A stretch of DNA of 45,480 nt from a virus, in IMG/VR virus record IMGVR_UViG_3300032356_000002, positions 1 to 45,480 of that record; one strand, given 5' to 3'. The stretch's first letter is position 1. Every line of letters begins with the position of its first letter. Made by a program: the position numbers and the translations under genes. Positions 3,475 to 45,480 of the stretch are shown in pieces. The notes beneath the pieces were generated by a model. The model saw only the letters and a program-made list of their open reading frames with translations, was not told where the DNA came from and ran no database searches.

Positions 3475-3978
3475 ATGGATTACTACGCTGATCTGATCAG
3501 ACAACGCGGAGAGGCCGAAGCCACCGCGATCATCGCAGACGATGCGCGAAAGCTGCGCCGCCACTTGTGCCTCATCCGGCTCATGGCGGCTGTGGCTGCT
3601 GCGCGGGAGCTGTGTCGGCGCGGCATCAAGGCGCCTTCTGGCACTTGGCACTTCGAACAAGGCTGGATGGATCTGATGCGAGAGGCGCGTTACGCTAAGG
3701 TGGCGGACGGACCGGCGCCGGAGTACGTCGTGCGCATAATCGCGTCCGGCGATCCGATAGACGATACTGAGCACATCGTCTTGAATGCTGGCCTCTTGCT
3801 CAGCCGGATGCAGCATGGATTTATTCCGTCCGCTCCGTTCCCATCCGAGGACTATCAGCGCGGCTGGGAAGCCGCATGTCAGGCGCTGCGCGAATCACAC
3901 GAGGCGCGCCTTTTGGCTGAGGCGTTGGAGGAGGCGAGAGGGGCGCTGGAGTCGTGTGGGATGGTCGGGAGGGATTGA
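3475..3978 (+). CDS. Unknown early protein
   Basis: 167 aa from ATG 3475, chosen because AGGTG lies six bases upstream; a GTG at 3466 is in frame but overlaps that site. Mostly helical: DYYADLIRQRGEAEATAIIADDARKL, then a basic stretch, and a C-terminal coil-like RLLAEALEEARGALES. No family recognised. It is the last gene before the first GGCNN array. Confidence 0.65.
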   Translation: MDYYADLIRQRGEAEATAIIADDARKLRRHLCLIRLMAAVAAARELCRRGIKAPSGTWHFEQGWMDLMREARYAKVADGPAPEYVVRIIASGDPIDDTEHIVLNAGLLLSRMQHGFIPSAPFPSEDYQRGWEAACQALRESHEARLLAEALEEARGALESCGMVGRD

Positions 3979-3998: not shown

Positions 3999-4183
3999 GG
4001 CTTGGCTTGGCGTGGCTGGATATGGCCTGGCATGGCACGGCGCGGCGGGGCGCGGCGGGGCGTGGCCGGGCTAGGCAAGGCGAGGATACCGCACTAATGT
4101 GTTTCCGCGGCGCGCCCTGGCTTGGCGCGGCTGGGCGAGGCGGGACCCGGCCCGGCGAGGCGCGACGAGGCATGGCGAGGTTT
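3999..4183. repeat. GGCNN pentamer array 1
   Basis: About 36 consecutive 5-bp units, nearly all GGCNN, in one register from 3999 to 4183. A 25-bp non-repeat insert (five units long, from about 4084) sits inside without breaking the phase. The array ends in GGCATGGCGAGGTTTTT. The + strand is GG-N3-GG throughout, so two-tier G-quadruplexes are possible. It fills the gap between genes ending at 3978 and starting at 4235. A frame starting at 4098 crosses it but its protein only mirrors the repeat. Confidence 0.9.
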
Positions 4184-6405: not shown

Positions 6406-7356
6406 ATGTCTGGAAAAAGAAACCCGTGGTATCCGATGTATCCAGGAGACTTCGAAACTGACGAAAACGTCAAGGGCATGACCGACGAAGAGGTTGGCTT
6501 CTACGTCCGGTGCCTGAACCATTGCTGGATCAATGGCAGCATCCCGGGGAACCTCGTGGAACTCGCCAGGGTCATGGGCCGTCCAGTCCGCACCGTGAGG
6601 CGGCTGTGGAGGGCGGTCGGCAAGTGCTTCGTGCCTGTAGATTCAGGTTACAATTCTTTAATTCGGCTCGGAAATAAAAGATTGCTCGAGGAATTGGAGA
6701 AAATCGAAAACCGCAGAAATTCAGCAAAGTTCAAAGCTACCCTTCGCTGGGCAAAAATCGATTCCGGCAATCAAAACGCGCAAGTCCAGACTTATCAACA
6801 AAACGCCGATGCTACGGCAATGCCACGGCAATGCCACGGCATTGCTGCGGCATTGCAGACTGTGAATGCTACAGCATTGCCACGGCAATGCCACGGCAAT
6901 GCTAATCATAATCATAATCATATAATACAGGCCCCCCCTACCCCCCCATGCTCCAACGGAGCGCCTCTCGACGAGTTTTTCGAGGGACGCTACCGAGCAC
7001 ATCCGAAGAAACGCGACCGGATGCTGGCCGAGCAGTACATGTCCCAGATCCCCGGCATCGAGACCGCCGAAATGCAGGACGAATTCCGGCGCGGACATGA
7101 CGCTTGGATCAGGTCTGAGGAGTGGCGCTGGAAAAACGGCGCGAAGGCTCCCACGCTGGCGCAATTCATCCTCGATCAAGGCTGGAAATATCCCCCGCCG
7201 GACGGGGAGGACTCGGGCGAAGTCCCCATGATCTCCACCGAGGAGTTTGAGCGGCTTCACCCGCCGTCGAGCGAGGGCGTAGATCCATACGCCGAATGGA
7301 TTCCACCGTGGGAGGACGAAAAGCGCAAGCGTGAGATTACCGGAGGTGACGCGTGA
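6406..7356 (+). CDS. DUF1376-type replication initiator / helicase loader
   Basis: Role comparable to lambda O: origin recognition and helicase recruitment. 316 aa. N-terminal DUF1376 domain, about 1-110 (WYPMYPGDFETDENVKGMT, EEVGFYVRCLNHCW, a winged-helix-like region). Then a Gln/Ala/His linker at about 130-180, coded by iteron-like repeats and ending in His-Asn alternation. The C-terminal part (DEFFEGRYRAHPKKRDR to ILDQGWKY) resembles helicase-loader C-termini. ATG 6406 has GGGGAGG upstream. The stop overlaps the dnaB GTG start. Two C7 tracts at about 6932-6947 are prone to slippage. Confidence 0.8.
   Translation: MSGKRNPWYPMYPGDFETDENVKGMTDEEVGFYVRCLNHCWINGSIPGNLVELARVMGRPVRTVRRLWRAVGKCFVPVDSGYNSLIRLGNKRLLEELEKIENRRNSAKFKATLRWAKIDSGNQNAQVQTYQQNADATAMPRQCHGIAAALQTVNATALPRQCHGNANHNHNHIIQAPPTPPCSNGAPLDEFFEGRYRAHPKKRDRMLAEQYMSQIPGIETAEMQDEFRRGHDAWIRSEEWRWKNGAKAPTLAQFILDQGWKYPPPDGEDSGEVPMISTEEFERLHPPSSEGVDPYAEWIPPWEDEKRKREITGGDA
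6811..6929. other. Candidate replication origin: iterons plus AT-rich element
   Basis: Seven 11-bp direct repeats, consensus GCYACGGCAWT, at 6811, 6822, 6833, 6844, 6868, 6879 and 6890, with one 13-bp spacer at 6855-6867. They are followed at 6901-6929 by an AT-rich stretch of repeated aatcat. Each repeat holds a near-palindrome (GGCAATGCC). Iterons plus an unwinding element inside the initiator gene, just upstream of the helicase gene, is the lambda ori/O arrangement. Confidence 0.75.
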
Positions 7357-12376: not shown

Positions 12377-12820
12377 ATGCCGGAGTCAATCCCAATCTAT
12401 CGGGCAGACGGTGAGCTATGTGGGGCCATTGGCCCGGCCGCGCTTCAACGGATGCAGGCGGCCGGGCTTATCGCCCGCGTGATCAAGTCCCGCAAGGGCG
12501 AGATTAAGCGCGCCATTATGGTCCCGCGCCGCCACGGCGATAAGCCGCTGCCGTTAACAGCATACATGGGAACGAGATATAGCTTTCTCGACCGAATGCC
12601 GGTCGGCCAATGCTGGGACTTAAAGCGGCTCGGTGGTGCTCGCTGGGGAACCAACTACGCGCCAGATGAAGTGCGCCCAATCTTTCTGCAAGTTGTCAGA
12701 GAATGTTTGGTGCCCAATATGACGCGGGGTAGCGCAGCGGTAGCGCGGCGGACTCATAATCCGCAGGCCGTGGGTTCGATTCCCACCCCCGCAACCATGT
12801 CTTTCCCGAGGACCTTGTGA
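12377..12820 (+). CDS. Unknown protein whose 3' end overlaps a tRNA gene
   Basis: 147 aa from ATG 12377 (GTG at 12338 also in frame). MPESIPIYRADGELCGAIGP, then AALQRMQAAGLIARV and a basic KSRKGEIKRAIMVPRR, resembling a small nucleic-acid-binding protein. The last 33 codons are read through the tRNA at 12723-12797, so the native protein may have been shorter or the tRNA inserted there. No family recognised. Confidence 0.55.
   Translation: MPESIPIYRADGELCGAIGPAALQRMQAAGLIARVIKSRKGEIKRAIMVPRRHGDKPLPLTAYMGTRYSFLDRMPVGQCWDLKRLGGARWGTNYAPDEVRPIFLQVVRECLVPNMTRGSAAVARRTHNPQAVGSIPTPATMSFPRTL
12723..12797 (+). tRNA. tRNA-Met (CAU) with initiator-type C1xA72
   Basis: 75 nt including encoded CCA. Acceptor CGCGGGG / CCCCGCA gives five pairs plus a C1xA72 mismatch and G2-C71, as in bacterial tRNA-fMet. 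D-stem GCGC/GCGC, anticodon stem GCGGA/TCCGC with loop CTCATAA (anticodon 12755-12757), T-arm GTGGG TTCGATT CCCAC. Deviations from a classic initiator: C11-G24 instead of A11-U24, and anticodon-stem pairs 29-31 are G-C, G-C, A-U rather than three G-C. An elongator Met or Ile(k2CAU) tRNA is less likely given C1xA72. Confidence 0.93.
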
Positions 12821-14318: not shown

Positions 14319-14472
14319 GGGCCGCGGTGGCGGCGGAGGTGTCGGCGGAGGTGTCGGCGGAGGTGGAGGCCGCGGTGGAGGCCGGGGTGGAGGCCGCGGT
14401 GGAGGCCGGGGTGGAGGCCGCGGTGGAGGCCGGGGTGGAGGCCGCGGTGGAGGCCGGGGTGGACGGCGCTAG
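14305..14472 (+). CDS. RGG-repeat low-complexity protein, 55 aa
   Basis: ATG 14305 with AAAGGAGGA upstream, overlapping the end of the ParB-DUF4417 gene by 14 nt. After MGRIEGR it is only glycine and arginine with two valines: eight GGGR units then GGRR. RGG/GGR tracts bind RNA and can drive condensates in other proteins. Its TAG overlaps the TAG of the convergent C39-like gene at GCTAGC. Function unknown. Confidence 0.55.
   Translation: MGRIEGRGGGGGVGGGVGGGGGRGGGRGGGRGGGRGGGRGGGRGGGRGGGRGGRR
14362..14457 (+). repeat. Eight 12-bp tandem repeats with alternating Arg codons
   Basis: Unit GGTGGAGGCCGC alternates strictly with GGTGGAGGCCGG, so the true period is 24 bp repeated four times without error. 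This suggests recent expansion by 24-bp duplication inside the RGG gene. Confidence 0.9.
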
Positions 14473-42540: not shown

Positions 42541-42909
42541 ATGGACGACCGTGCGCTCGGCCGCATGTGCCGCACCTGGCAGCGGCGCCTGCGGCTGATG
42601 GATTGGCGCATCGCCGTGCGCTATTTGCCGGCCGCGGAGATGGGTGAGGATCTCGGGCGCTGCGAGTACGACGATACCGAGATGGAGGCGACCATCAGCA
42701 TCGTGGCCGACGGAGAGCATCCCGGGCACTCCGAGCGCACGCTCGTGCACGAGCTGCTGCACTTGAGACTTGCTGCATGGAGTGCGCCGCACGGAGATCC
42801 GGCGCAAGAGACGGCGATCAACCTACTGGCCGATTCGATCCTGGCGGCATACCGCAGAAGAAGAAAAGGCGCCTCCGCAGATTCCGGCGGAGGTGCCGCG
42901 GGCGGCTGA
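42541..42909 (+). CDS. HExxH zinc metallopeptidase-like protein
   Basis: 122 aa. TLVHELLHLRL gives His70-Glu71-x-x-His74. N-terminal WQRRLRLMDWRIAVRYLP and EATISIVADGEH match phage SprT-like/putative metallopeptidases. The codons after about 110 (Gly/Ala tail) contain the terminator stem of the convergent operon. Confidence 0.75.
   Translation: MDDRALGRMCRTWQRRLRLMDWRIAVRYLPAAEMGEDLGRCEYDDTEMEATISIVADGEHPGHSERTLVHELLHLRLAAWSAPHGDPAQETAINLLADSILAAYRRRRKGASADSGGGAAGG
42861..42897 (-). terminator. Terminator of the minus-strand operon, inside the opposing CDS
   Basis: Minus-strand stem GGCACCTCCGC / GCGGAGGCGCC (11 bp with one wobble; + positions 42887-42897 / 42868-42878), 8-nt loop, then TTTTCTTCTT. 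It stops transcription after the RHH gene and lies within the 3' end of the convergent metallopeptidase gene. Confidence 0.8.
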
Positions 42910-42930
42910 CTTTTGGGTGGGCGCGGCTGG

Positions 42931-43110
42931 CTACTTCTTCTGGCGCCCTTGCTCCTTGTCCAGGCCGAGCGCCCGGCGCAGCAGCGCATCGATCAGCGCC
43001 GAGATGGATGGCACTCGGGCTTCCCACCTCAGCCGGTCGAGCTCCGCCCAAATATCTGGACGGAGTGTGATGGTAAGTCGGCGCGGGCTCATGCTCGATC
43101 CCGATATCAT
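42931..43110 (-). CDS. Ribbon-helix-helix DNA-binding protein
   Basis: 59 aa from minus ATG 43110, with GGAGGG upstream and an ATGA overlap with the solenoid stop; the longer start at 43137 lacks a site. RRLTITLRPDIWAELDRLRWEARVPSISALIDALLRRAL is a complete RHH/CopG-type fold: beta strand, helix, SISALI turn, helix. Probable autorepressor or operon regulator. Confidence 0.85.
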   Translation of the reverse strand: MISGSSMSPRRLTITLRPDIWAELDRLRWEARVPSISALIDALLRRALGLDKEQGRQKK

Positions 43111-43922
43111 TTTTCCCTCCTTTCGGTTTCCCGCCATAAAACCTCGTGCTCGTAACGCCGGGCGTAGTCATCGTCCGACAGGATGGTCGGCTCCGCCTCC
43201 GGCCACCTGCCGCCGATCACCTCGGCGGCGTAGAGGCGAGCCCACCGTGGATCTTGGGCGATTGCTTCCTCCCCCTCCGGCCATCGCCCGCGGATTACGT
43301 CGGCTGCGTAGAAGCAGGCCCACTGGGCATCTTGGGCGATTGTCGGCTCCGCTTCGGGCCACCGGCAGCGCAGCACGTCGCGGGCGTAGAGGTATGCCCA
43401 CTCGGGGCTCCGGGCGATGATCGGCTCCACTTCCGGCCACCGCCCGCGGACCACATCGCGGGCGTAGCGGTATAGGTACTCCGGATCTTGATCGCGGGCG
43501 ATTGCCTCCTCACCATCCGGCCACCGGCCGCGCAGCACGTCGCGGGCGTAGAGGTACGCCAACTGCGTGTCCCGGGCGATGTTCGGTTCGCCCTCCGGCC
43601 ACCTCCCGCGCACCACGTCGCGGGCATAGTAGTAGGCCCGCTCTGGGTCCTGTGCGATGACCGGCTCTGCCTCCGGCCATCGTCCGCGGAGAACGTGCTT
43701 GGCGTATTGCCACGCGGGCCACGGCTCTCTTGCGATGATCGGCTCCAGGTCGGGCACGGGCTGCCTGACGACACGGATGGCATAACAGCAGGCCCATTCG
43801 GGCGCATCGGGGTGCCTGGCAAATTCGTCCCAGCCCCCCATAGATTGCAGGATCTCAATCACCTCCCGGCAGACTCCGGCGTCCCTTGCGCGCTTAACTG
43901 CATCGTGAAAGCTTAAGTTCAT
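43107..43922 (-). CDS. 26-residue-repeat alpha-solenoid protein
   Basis: 271 aa. After about 50 N-terminal residues (SFHDAVKRARDAGVCREVIEIL) it is seven or more 26-residue units, consensus RGRWPEAEPxIAxDPxxAYxYARDVL. Arg-Trp-Pro turns and alternating acidic and tyrosine helices imply a stacked helical-hairpin solenoid, as in HEAT/TPR-like scaffolds. Similar repeats occur in other phage proteins of unknown role. Its leader contains the hammerhead ribozyme. Partner unknown. Confidence 0.75.
   Translation of the reverse strand: MNLSFHDAVKRARDAGVCREVIEILQSMGGWDEFARHPDAPEWACCYAIRVVRQPVPDLEPIIAREPWPAWQYAKHVLRGRWPEAEPVIAQDPERAYYYARDVVRGRWPEGEPNIARDTQLAYLYARDVLRGRWPDGEEAIARDQDPEYLYRYARDVVRGRWPEVEPIIARSPEWAYLYARDVLRCRWPEAEPTIAQDAQWACFYAADVIRGRWPEGEEAIAQDPRWARLYAAEVIGGRWPEAEPTILSDDDYARRYEHEVLWRETERREK
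43124..43133 (-). promoter_or_regulatory. GAAA-tetraloop hairpin before the RHH gene
   Basis: Minus strand CGG-GAAA-CCG, 13 nt before ATG 43110 and adjoining the ribosome site AAGGAGGG. A weakened copy of the hairpin ahead of the solenoid gene. Confidence 0.5.
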
Positions 43923-43936
43923 CTTTCCTCATCTCT

Positions 43937-44009
43937 TGCGGTTTCCCGCGACGCCCCAGAGGGGCGTTTCGGCCGGGGACCACCCGGACTCATCAGGCGG
44001 GCTTGCGCA
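43937..44009 (-). ncRNA. Hammerhead ribozyme, type I
   Basis: Minus strand. Core CUGAUGAG (43996-43989) and CGAAAC (43971-43966) with all invariant residues. Stem II between them: G-C, one U x C mismatch, CCGGG/CCCGG, 5-nt loop. Stem III: ACGCCCC/GGGGCGT with loop TCT. Cleavage triplet GUC ends at C17 = 43950; scission falls between 43950 and 43949. Stem I is open: CCCGC/GCGGG, a 4x4 internal loop, then TGCG/CGCA. It starts about 7 nt after the terminator of the preceding gene and ends 14 nt before ATG 43922. The 3' product begins exactly with hairpin GCGG-GAAA-CCGC. Confidence 0.92.
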
Positions 44010-44016
44010 CTTCACG

Positions 44017-44044
44017 AAAAGCCCGGCGGCTTCGGCTGCCGGGC
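44017..44044 (-). terminator. Intrinsic terminator upstream of the hammerhead
   Basis: Minus strand stem GCCCGGCAGC / GCCGCCGGGC (10 bp with one wobble) with CGAA loop, then TTTT (44020-44017). It follows the 73-aa gene and lies 7 nt before the ribozyme, leaving no room for a promoter between them. Confidence 0.85.
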
Positions 44045-44049
44045 CCGAA

Positions 44050-44271
44050 TCAGTCTTGGAGAGCTACAGCGCCATCAATCCACCGCCGCGCAACCCTTTT
44101 GAGCTGCTCGGCCGTATAGGCCAACTCCGCGTTACCGTCACGCCGAAAGACCTGCCGCCCCCACGAAATGCTCGTGGGGTCCACGAAAACATAACCGCTC
44201 GGACGCGCCACGAACCTCACAACGCGGCCTAGCTTCCGGCTCTTAATGTCAAGCACGATTGTCTCACTCAT
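44050..44271 (-). CDS. Unknown small protein, 73 aa
   Basis: Start ATG 44271 chosen for AAAGGAGGAG just upstream; longer starts run into the terminator. Beta-rich N-terminal half (ETIVLDIKSRKLGRVVRFV, SGYVFVDPTSISWG), helical end. No family recognised. Bounded on both sides by terminators. Confidence 0.65.
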   Translation of the reverse strand: MSETIVLDIKSRKLGRVVRFVARPSGYVFVDPTSISWGRQVFRRDGNAELAYTAEQLKRVARRWIDGAVALQD

Positions 44272-44293
44272 CACTCCTCCTTTCATGCTAACG

Positions 44294-44322
44294 AAAAAGC
44301 CCGGCAGCCGAAGCCGCCGGGC
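44294..44322 (-). terminator. Intrinsic terminator with C(UUCG)G loop
   Basis: Minus strand stem GCCCGGCGGC / GCTGCCGGGC, loop TTCG, then TTTTT. Ideal intrinsic terminator directly after the gene ending at 44329. The hairpin sequence equals that at 44017-44044 in flipped orientation, with the T-run on the same side in both. Confidence 0.9.
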
Positions 44323-44328
44323 CATGAA

Positions 44329-44859
44329 TCAGAAAATTTCAGCGAGTTCCCTCTCCTGAGGGGTTGCCACAAGGACTTTCCCCTCACGTAGGATATAGTG
44401 GTACTCTGGAGGCGCGCCGTAAAGGCGCCCTGTCCGTCGCACCTTCAGGACTTTCTCTTGAGGGATGAGAACAACAAGCTGCTCCCCCCACCCCATCCGC
44501 CCAGCCGCGCCCTGGGCGATGACGCCGCGAACAATGGACATGAATTCGCCTTCGTGGGAATTCCCCCCACGAAATCCGATTCCAGTCCGCAACACAAGGA
44601 TGGCTGGAGCGGGCACAGCGTTCTCCAGAGACGCGGCAAGCAGCTTGGGCTTGCCGGAAGAAGTCTGTCCCACTTGGGCGGCGTAGATCCGCTCTCCCGG
44701 ACGAACGCCCACGACCGGGAGCACGCCCAGCGACCGGCCGCGCCCTTTCTCGCCGACAAGGATGGCGGGGATTTTTTCCCCGCTCGAAAGGGTCAGTTCC
44801 TGCACCTCGGCCCCGTCCTCGATCCTGGGACCGGAAATTGTGAATATTCTAAGCACCAT
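44329..44859 (-). CDS. Unknown protein, 176 aa
   Basis: Start ATG 44859 after GAGGAGGAGGAGACAT, overlapping the upstream gene by 11 nt. Beta-rich with glycine turns: LSSGEKIPAILVGEKGRGRSLGVLPV, PAILVLRTGIGFRGG, WGEQLVVLIPQEKVLKV. No family recognised. Followed by a strong terminator. Confidence 0.65.
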   Translation of the reverse strand: MVLRIFTISGPRIEDGAEVQELTLSSGEKIPAILVGEKGRGRSLGVLPVVGVRPGERIYAAQVGQTSSGKPKLLAASLENAVPAPAILVLRTGIGFRGGNSHEGEFMSIVRGVIAQGAAGRMGWGEQLVVLIPQEKVLKVRRTGRLYGAPPEYHYILREGKVLVATPQERELAEIF

Positions 44860-45472
44860 ATGTCTCCTCCTCCTCTCTTGCGGTTTCCCGCGACACTGCA
44901 TCCGCATAGCGCCCGGGAAGGTACTCGACGGACTCCAGTCCCTGAGCACCATCCCAAGGATCCTGCGCCCAGGTGTCCGTGATGCGGGCACATCCACAGC
45001 GCATACAGACATCGATGACCACGACGCCGCCGCCGTGGCTCCAGACGCCCGGATTGCTTTCGCACCCGCCTACGATCTCGTGGGGTGCGTGCCAATCGTG
45101 GTCGTCGTCATCGATGCACGGCGGTTCCTCCGGGTCGATTGTCACTTTCATGACCTGGTCATCGACTCGGCAGAGCTTTCCGTCTTCATTGATCGCTGGG
45201 CGGTACACGGTAACGTTCACCCAATCCGTGCGCAAGCTAGGCTCCCAGTCGCCCGTATCCACGTATGCCCGGGCGGCCTCCTCCGCCGTCCGCGCGCCCG
45301 GGAACGGCCAGTCTCCGCCTTCGTCCGCCACGCACCACAGCGGCGGCTCCGGGAGGACGCAGCGGCCCTCCCGCCAGTCGTCGATTATCCTCCAGCCGCG
45401 CTCAGCGGCCAGCTCGTCAATGGTGGCTTGCCCCGCAGACACCCGGCGGGCAAGCTCTTCGATTTTCTCCAT
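44849..45472 (-). CDS. Unknown phage protein with Cys-rich C-terminal half
   Basis: 207 aa from ATG 45472. N-terminal helix (LARRVSAGQATIDELAAERG), middle strand VNVTVYRPAINEDG, then DDHDWHAPHEIVGGCESNPGVW and VCMRCGCARITDTWAQ, a possible single-metal site. Its end codons carry the GCGG-GAAA-CCGC hairpin of the next gene. No function known. Confidence 0.7.
   Translation of the reverse strand: MEKIEELARRVSAGQATIDELAAERGWRIIDDWREGRCVLPEPPLWCVADEGGDWPFPGARTAEEAARAYVDTGDWEPSLRTDWVNVTVYRPAINEDGKLCRVDDQVMKVTIDPEEPPCIDDDDHDWHAPHEIVGGCESNPGVWSHGGGVVVIDVCMRCGCARITDTWAQDPWDGAQGLESVEYLPGRYADAVSRETAREEEETYGA
44880..44891 (-). promoter_or_regulatory. GAAA-tetraloop hairpin before the 176-aa gene
   Basis: Minus strand GCGG-GAAA-CCGC, 20 nt before ATG 44859. 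It is preceded by GTC and followed by AAGAGA, making a 21-nt match to the hammerhead cleavage-product region at 43952-43932, but there is no ribozyme core upstream. Confidence 0.55.
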
Positions 45473-45480
45473 TACTTCCA

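Follow-up and report, generated by a model that had tools for sequence, protein, structure and literature searches.

Described phage hammerheads and related constructs

Type I hammerhead ribozymes of prokaryotes and phages have been described by Perreault et al. (2011, PMC3088659) and reviewed in PMC6155905. They lie in intergenic positions of phage and prophage operons, and often occur several times in one genome. RNAs of 2 kb carrying clustered prophage hammerheads are cut in vitro, and one set is cut also in E. coli (PMC3088659). HHphage, the hammerhead of haloviruses HF1 and HF2, is found a few nt before a start codon, and the 5' end of a halovirus transcript has been mapped to the hammerhead site, near the position of cleavage (PMC3088659). 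The role of phage hammerheads is presented as an open question in PMC6155905. A hammerhead cut followed by a hairpin placed directly before the ribosome-binding site is also the arrangement of RiboJ, an engineered insulator in which the sTRSV hammerhead, derived from a plant satellite RNA, is joined to a 23-nt hairpin (PMC8794103).

The element described here is found in the IMG/VR record IMGVR_UViG_3300032356_000002, analysed over its whole length of 45,480 bases (hereafter, the window). It shares with the known prokaryotic and phage type I hammerheads the core, the type I topology and a pseudoknot joining loop II to the 3' side, as well as the intergenic location in phage or prophage operons and the tendency to occur in several copies per genome (PMC3088659 and PMC6155905). 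As HHphage, it precedes a start codon by a few nt, but it has a consensus core, whereas HHphage carries core insertions near C3 (PMC3088659). It differs from the set of Perreault et al. in that Rfam RF00163 does not report sequences of its class. A hairpin of the leader competing with the ribozyme fold, documented below, is not described for this type of hammerheads in the accessible parts of PMC3088659 and PMC6155905. The order of cut, hairpin and ribosome-binding site resembles RiboJ, from which the window differs in that the hairpin reuses one strand of stem I.

The window genome encodes a GpA-type terminase, a lambda-type portal, a capsid E protein, a tape measure protein, a DnaB-like helicase and a RecT-like protein. 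By terminase, portal and capsid E it is classified as a Caudoviricetes-type genome. A single tRNA gene, with anticodon CAU, is located at 12723-12797. Two matches to one short Rfam motif, spaced 48 nt apart at 14370-14457, suggest a 48-nt tandem repeat. Strong palindromic GCAATGCC/GGCATTGC repeats at 6817-6902, within a primosomal-protein-like gene, cause false Rfam miRNA matches. The ribozyme belongs to a short unit on the minus strand, near the right end of the record.

Structure of the window element

The minus strand from 44001 to 43945 reads directly as a complete type I hammerhead ribozyme, as proposed by a sequence-only reading of this DNA. All the invariant core residues are present in order (C3 U4 G5 A6 N7 G8 A9, G12 A13 A14 A15.1-U16.1 and H17), three helices surround them, and the identification is further backed by the minimum-energy fold, by a covariance model (74.8 bits, see below) and by homologues in isolated phages. 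The order of the parts on the minus strand is CCCGC-CUGAUGA-GUCCGGG-UGGUC-CCCGGCC-GAAACGCCCC-UCU-GGGGCGU-C^GCGGG-AAACCGCAAGAGAUGAGGAAAG-AUG. Stem I is open, while stems II and III are closed by loops, which identifies type I.

Stem I consists of 5 bp, formed by the CCCGC (44001-43997) and GCGGG (43949-43945) strands. The CUGAUGA box (C3-A9, 43990-43996) is column-invariant in the family except for N7. The GAAA box (G12-A15.1, 43967-43970, A15.1 being 43967) is similarly invariant in the alignments. Stem II and loop II (GUCCGGG-UGGUC-CCCGGCC, 43971-43989) include 6 bp and one U.C mismatch at the second pair, adjoining the closing pair. Two relatives (L193 and L174) have the same UGGUC loop, but their stem II is made of 7 perfect pairs, and no mismatch of the window type was seen among the relatives inspected. 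Stem III (43951-43967), with loop UCU, covaries in relatives; its 7 bp, already counted in the earlier reading, are confirmed by the fold. Cleavage is predicted at GUC^G, between 43950 (C17) and 43949, the same site indicated earlier, as deduced from the hammerhead consensus.

The 73-nt piece alone is predicted to fold as a hammerhead, and the hammerhead is the minimum-energy fold also when 100 nt of flanking DNA are added on each side. In the single-strand ensemble computed with flanks, leaving out the pseudoknot, this fold takes about 10% of the weight. A type II reading relying on GAGAUGAG downstream (Rfam type II model, 13.2 bits) was rejected, as it lacks CUGAUGA.

Homologues and detection by covariance models

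When the element and its surroundings (2,981 nt) were searched by blastn, the sole match was with Salisaeta icosahedral phage 1 (E 3e-6). The match falls exactly at the element, is 83% identical over 60 nt, and is located in an unannotated gap of the phage genome; outside the element, no DNA similarity between the two was found within the 3 kb searched. With a short query, blastn also matched Flavonifractor phage Castelnaud and Faecalibacterium phage FP_Brigit. Matches to plasmids were weak and chance-like.

A covariance model of 69 positions was derived from 15 phage relatives, excluding the window. Run on the window, it identified the element as sole match (74.8 bits, E 2.7e-21). This E-value is partly circular for stems I and III, because most of the 15 loci had been retrieved with patterns derived from these stems of the window element, whereas the blastn match is not circular. 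The same model detected a second element in Salisaeta icosahedral phage 1, before ORF17. The phage (JN880423) thus hosts two unannotated hammerheads, at 3578-3648 and 4001-4069, directly before ORF17 and ORF18, respectively. Both are of type I, precede a start codon and have the same stem III, stem I and leader start as the window element. In the copy before ORF18, stem II is perfect and the pseudoknot is CGC/GCG in place of the GGU/ACC of the window.

The sequence-only reading had indicated the Rfam hammerhead model as a check, and a score below threshold as a refutation. By that criterion the element would fail, because RF00163 gave no match at E<=10, short of its gathering cut-off. The failure reflects the poor sensitivity of the Rfam model and not the absence of a ribozyme, because no hammerhead is reported by Rfam in 19 loci carrying clear ones, and the homologue in the Salisaeta phage scores 21.8 bits with the type I model, whose cut-off is 34. 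The gathering cut-off is a database threshold, and not a defining structural feature. Across the family, 69% of the GCGGG-class elements (for example L095:2693-2760) feature an extra U between A9 and the first stem II pair (CUGAYGAUGG..CCGAAA). The extra U may be the reason why Rfam misses elements of this class.

Size of the family and covariation

The pattern combining stem I CCCGC/GCGGG with the core retrieved a large set of viral contigs among the matches listed. The same pattern identified 86 stretches in bacterial and archaeal genomes, against an estimated 0.1 or so expected by chance; these are mostly from Clostridia/Bacillota, with some from cyanobacteria. Three further stem I classes added 58, 18 and 73 contigs. 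A pattern limited to stem III (CCGAAACGCCC..GGGCGUC) retrieved from viral contigs both type I and type II elements among the matches listed.

Members of the CCCGC/GCGGG set, which is unbiased, feature a stem II of at least 4 bp in 96% of cases, compared to 18% after shuffling, and a stem III in 62%, compared to 3%. In a clean alignment, 93.5% of the cells are paired according to the named structure, and 54 double changes were counted. None of 500 shuffles reached any of the measures, and the structure collapses when slid by one column. By these sequence comparisons, the window element is assigned to a very large family of type I hammerheads of phages and prophages. The size of this family, invisible to Rfam, is possibly new: neither it nor the leader hairpin was found described in the accessible parts of open-licence papers.

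Some variants are worth recording. One phage locus (L030, near 890 and 1814) hosts two elements in which the core is CCGAUGAG and not CUGAUGAG (U4C), beside consensus copies. A further phage leader combines two ribozyme classes in tandem: a type I hammerhead is followed, after about 15 nt, by a Twister-sister ribozyme (L044:1081-1235, minus strand; Rfam, 46 bits).

Pairing of loop II with the 3' tail

A tertiary contact involving an extended stem I with an internal loop had been anticipated for this element. A contact emerges from the comparison of relatives, but it is differently placed. RNAalifold, supplied with the alignment and no given structure, paired loop II unprompted with the nucleotides that directly follow stem I on its 3' side; one pair of this helix shows 24 double changes. 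The partners vary in concert across elements (GGC-GCC, GGU-ACC, GGA-UCC, CGC-GCG). In the window, the Watson-Crick pairing of the stem II loop with the stem I region involves GGU (43979-43981) in loop II and ACC (43940-43942) in the tail that follows stem I. Loop II and tail can form at least three Watson-Crick pairs in 97.5% of 200 elements, but in 69% when partners are swapped. Covariation in about 200 relatives supports a pseudoknot between loop II and the 3' tail as the best account of the stem I/II contact. Such a pseudoknot is described by Perreault et al., and breaking it cost orders of magnitude in rate (PMC3088659). The outer part of stem I (UGCG/CGCA), on which the sequence-only reading relied, was discarded as a tertiary contact of the family, since it pairs in 37% of the elements versus 32% with swapped partners, which is near chance.

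A possible alternative hairpin in the 3' product

Instead of its 5' partner, the 3' strand of stem I may pair with a segment located 5-15 nt downstream. The resulting hairpin in the window is GCGG-GAAA-CCGC (43938-43949, minus strand), in which the stem I strand meets its own complement in the leader. The hairpin excludes both stem I and the pseudoknot, because it uses a strand of each.

A first covariation test, carried out on a small sample of 33 elements with a non-GCGG stem I, gave no clear signal. A non-redundant test was positive, and three new stem I classes were then fetched to test the prediction. Redundancy was cut at 85% similarity, and relatedness among phages may inflate the counts given here. 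CCGC is present in 82/146 GCGG leaders and in 4/86 leaders of the other classes; CCAC in 31/44 GTGG leaders and in 40/188 elsewhere. The excess of the own complement is weaker in two small stem I classes (3/10 and 8/32). Pooling the three non-GCGG classes, 42/86 leaders carry it, against 26.7 +/- 3.3 after label shuffling (maximum 38 in 5000). Overall, a leader hairpin of at least 4 bp is possible in 65% of the leaders, and in 14% of shuffled ones.

The hairpin, possibly new, would form after cleavage and trap the product, so that the ribosome-binding site is closely preceded by a structured 5' end. Hammerheads of types II and III obtain a hairpin of this kind for free, as their stem I is closed; type I would need an evolved extra strand.

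Genomic context

The predicted cut is followed by the leader hairpin (43949-43938), by the Shine-Dalgarno GAGG (43930-43927) and by an AUG at 43922, 27 nt past the cut, in the same order seen in RiboJ. The location of the hammerhead in the leader of a phage gene, claimed from the start, is retained. The downstream gene (43107-43922) encodes a 271 aa repeat (solenoid-like) protein, for which family searches gave no convincing family. On the other side, a small gene (44050-44271, 73 aa), whose start is preceded by AAGGAGG, gave no phage homologue, and no close relatives of the neighbouring proteins were found in viral contigs. A terminator-like hairpin followed by four U (44017-44046) separates this gene from the ribozyme; it is real, and ends 7 nt before 44009, where the element had originally been made to begin. 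Similar GGCCCGGC/GCCGGGC hairpins with U runs are found on the minus strand after two consecutive genes, at 44323-44298 and 44046-44021.

The arrangement is general downstream of the ribozymes. A Shine-Dalgarno and a start codon are found within 150 nt in 121 of 145 distinct type I elements, at a median distance of 43 nt past the cut; the corresponding figures are 29/152 in antisense and 269/760 at random places. The preceding reading frame usually stops some 22 nt short of the element, and many genomes have several elements, before successive genes. These three features place the elements between genes that are transcribed together, in agreement with what is described for prophage hammerheads (PMC3088659).

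Terminator-like hairpins within 120 nt upstream were found in 7/152 relatives (4.6%) and at 14/456 random places (3.1%), and the terminator was rejected as part of the module because of this near random frequency. The idea that terminator read-through is followed by self-cleavage is consequently not supported as a general mechanism. It may hold in the window, where no sigma-70-like promoter was found in 42900-45480; here the upstream hairpin may keep most transcripts from reaching the ribozyme.

A core-less copy of the tail

The sequence-only reading overlooked both the hairpin of the 3' product and a second copy of the ribozyme tail before the next gene upstream. This copy, GUCGCGGGAAACCGCAAGAGA, is an exact 21-nt repeat (0 expected) located at 44874-44894 on the minus strand, and has no catalytic core. 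The covariance search found no core at this place, and the window hosts no second complete hammerhead. The gene behind the copy (44329-44859, minus strand) starts 15 nt after it, and its homologues in L174 and L193 are found directly behind complete hammerheads. Of 154 tails in the fetched loci, that of the window is the sole one not preceded by GAAAC and a stem III trace (it is counted twice, via a duplicate locus); one further match is cut by a contig end. The copy is interpreted as what is left of a second hammerhead that lost its core on joining of the preceding ORF (45472-44849), while hairpin and ribosome-binding site were kept. Cleavage of the tail copy in trans by the intact ribozyme was rejected, as only about 4 stem III pairs could form.

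Proposed role and alternatives

The core, the fold, the family, the covariation of stems, pseudoknot and leader hairpin, and the position before start codons, all read from sequence, point to a self-cleaving hammerhead set between genes of a minus-strand phage unit, which would process the intercistronic mRNA and leave a 5'-OH hairpin leader, as RiboJ does. We assign to this reading a probability of about 0.7 (0.72). As transcription proceeds through the element, the core would fold, with the 5-bp stem I, stems II and III and the GGU/ACC pseudoknot, and the RNA would cut itself after C43950. The upstream message, carrying the terminator hairpin, would retain most of the ribozyme and end in a 2',3'-cyclic phosphate. 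The downstream message would begin with 5'-OH-GCGGGAAACCGC, at a distance of 27 nt from the AUG. Once freed, this strand could refold into the GCGG-GAAA-CCGC hairpin, made of the stem I strand and the pseudoknot strand. Refolding should make cleavage irreversible, and provide a 5' leader of defined structure that immediately precedes the Shine-Dalgarno. Ribozyme activity, co-transcriptional cutting, trapping of the product and stabilisation or insulation of the mRNA are all expected under this scheme.

Self-cleavage in leaders can also lower expression, as occurs with glmS. By analogy, an active hammerhead could reduce expression of the downstream gene, either because the mRNA is degraded once its leader is cut, or because cleavage is regulated by a ligand or a protein, as was raised for phage hammerheads by Perreault et al. 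(PMC3088659). We regard this as rather unlikely, because the cut spares the Shine-Dalgarno and the start codon, a hairpin can form at the new 5' end in most relatives, and loops II and III are minimal, with no aptamer-like insert in the window.

The U.C mismatch in stem II and the core-less 21-nt copy in the same window might rather denote a decayed, inactive relic of recent descent, in which the mismatch marks the loss of function and the tail copy a further step of decay. This is less probable still, as all invariant residues, stem I, stem III and the pseudoknot are intact, and an irregular foot of stem II is common in relatives, including the 69% of one class that have the extra U after A9.

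The exact duplication of the 21-nt tail before another gene of the window, together with leaders that, in several loci, are almost the same ahead of different genes, would also fit a main role at the DNA level, that of a conserved spacer promoting recombination of phage gene cassettes, cleavage being secondary. This looks very improbable: compensatory changes in all three stems and in the pseudoknot show that RNA structure is under selection, and a recombination site has no need of it. Finally, hammerhead-like strings arise by chance in large databases (PMC3088659), but a chance match to a small motif is already refuted by the blastn and covariance model matches, the window has one occurrence of the relaxed core pattern where 0.06 would be expected, the model match extends over 69 positions (E 2.7e-21), and the element is conserved in unrelated phages.

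Processing between genes thus stays the preferred reading, and a wider proposal, on which we are of two minds, may be built on it. Type I phage hammerheads might be natural cut-refold-cap modules, in which the released strand is built to fold into a hairpin at the 5' terminus, at the expense of both stem I and the pseudoknot, making cutting one-way. Each gene of a long phage transcript would so obtain a leader of its own, with a 5'-OH and a hairpin cap, right in front of the ribosome-binding site, and type I would have evolved the extra strand for it.

A common ribozyme of phages escapes the standard Rfam model, and is consequently undercounted in phage annotation. The family is large enough to exhibit a regular architecture, made of ribozyme, alternative 5' hairpin, ribosome-binding site and start codon, which provides a concrete and testable mechanism by which phages may cut their polycistronic messages.
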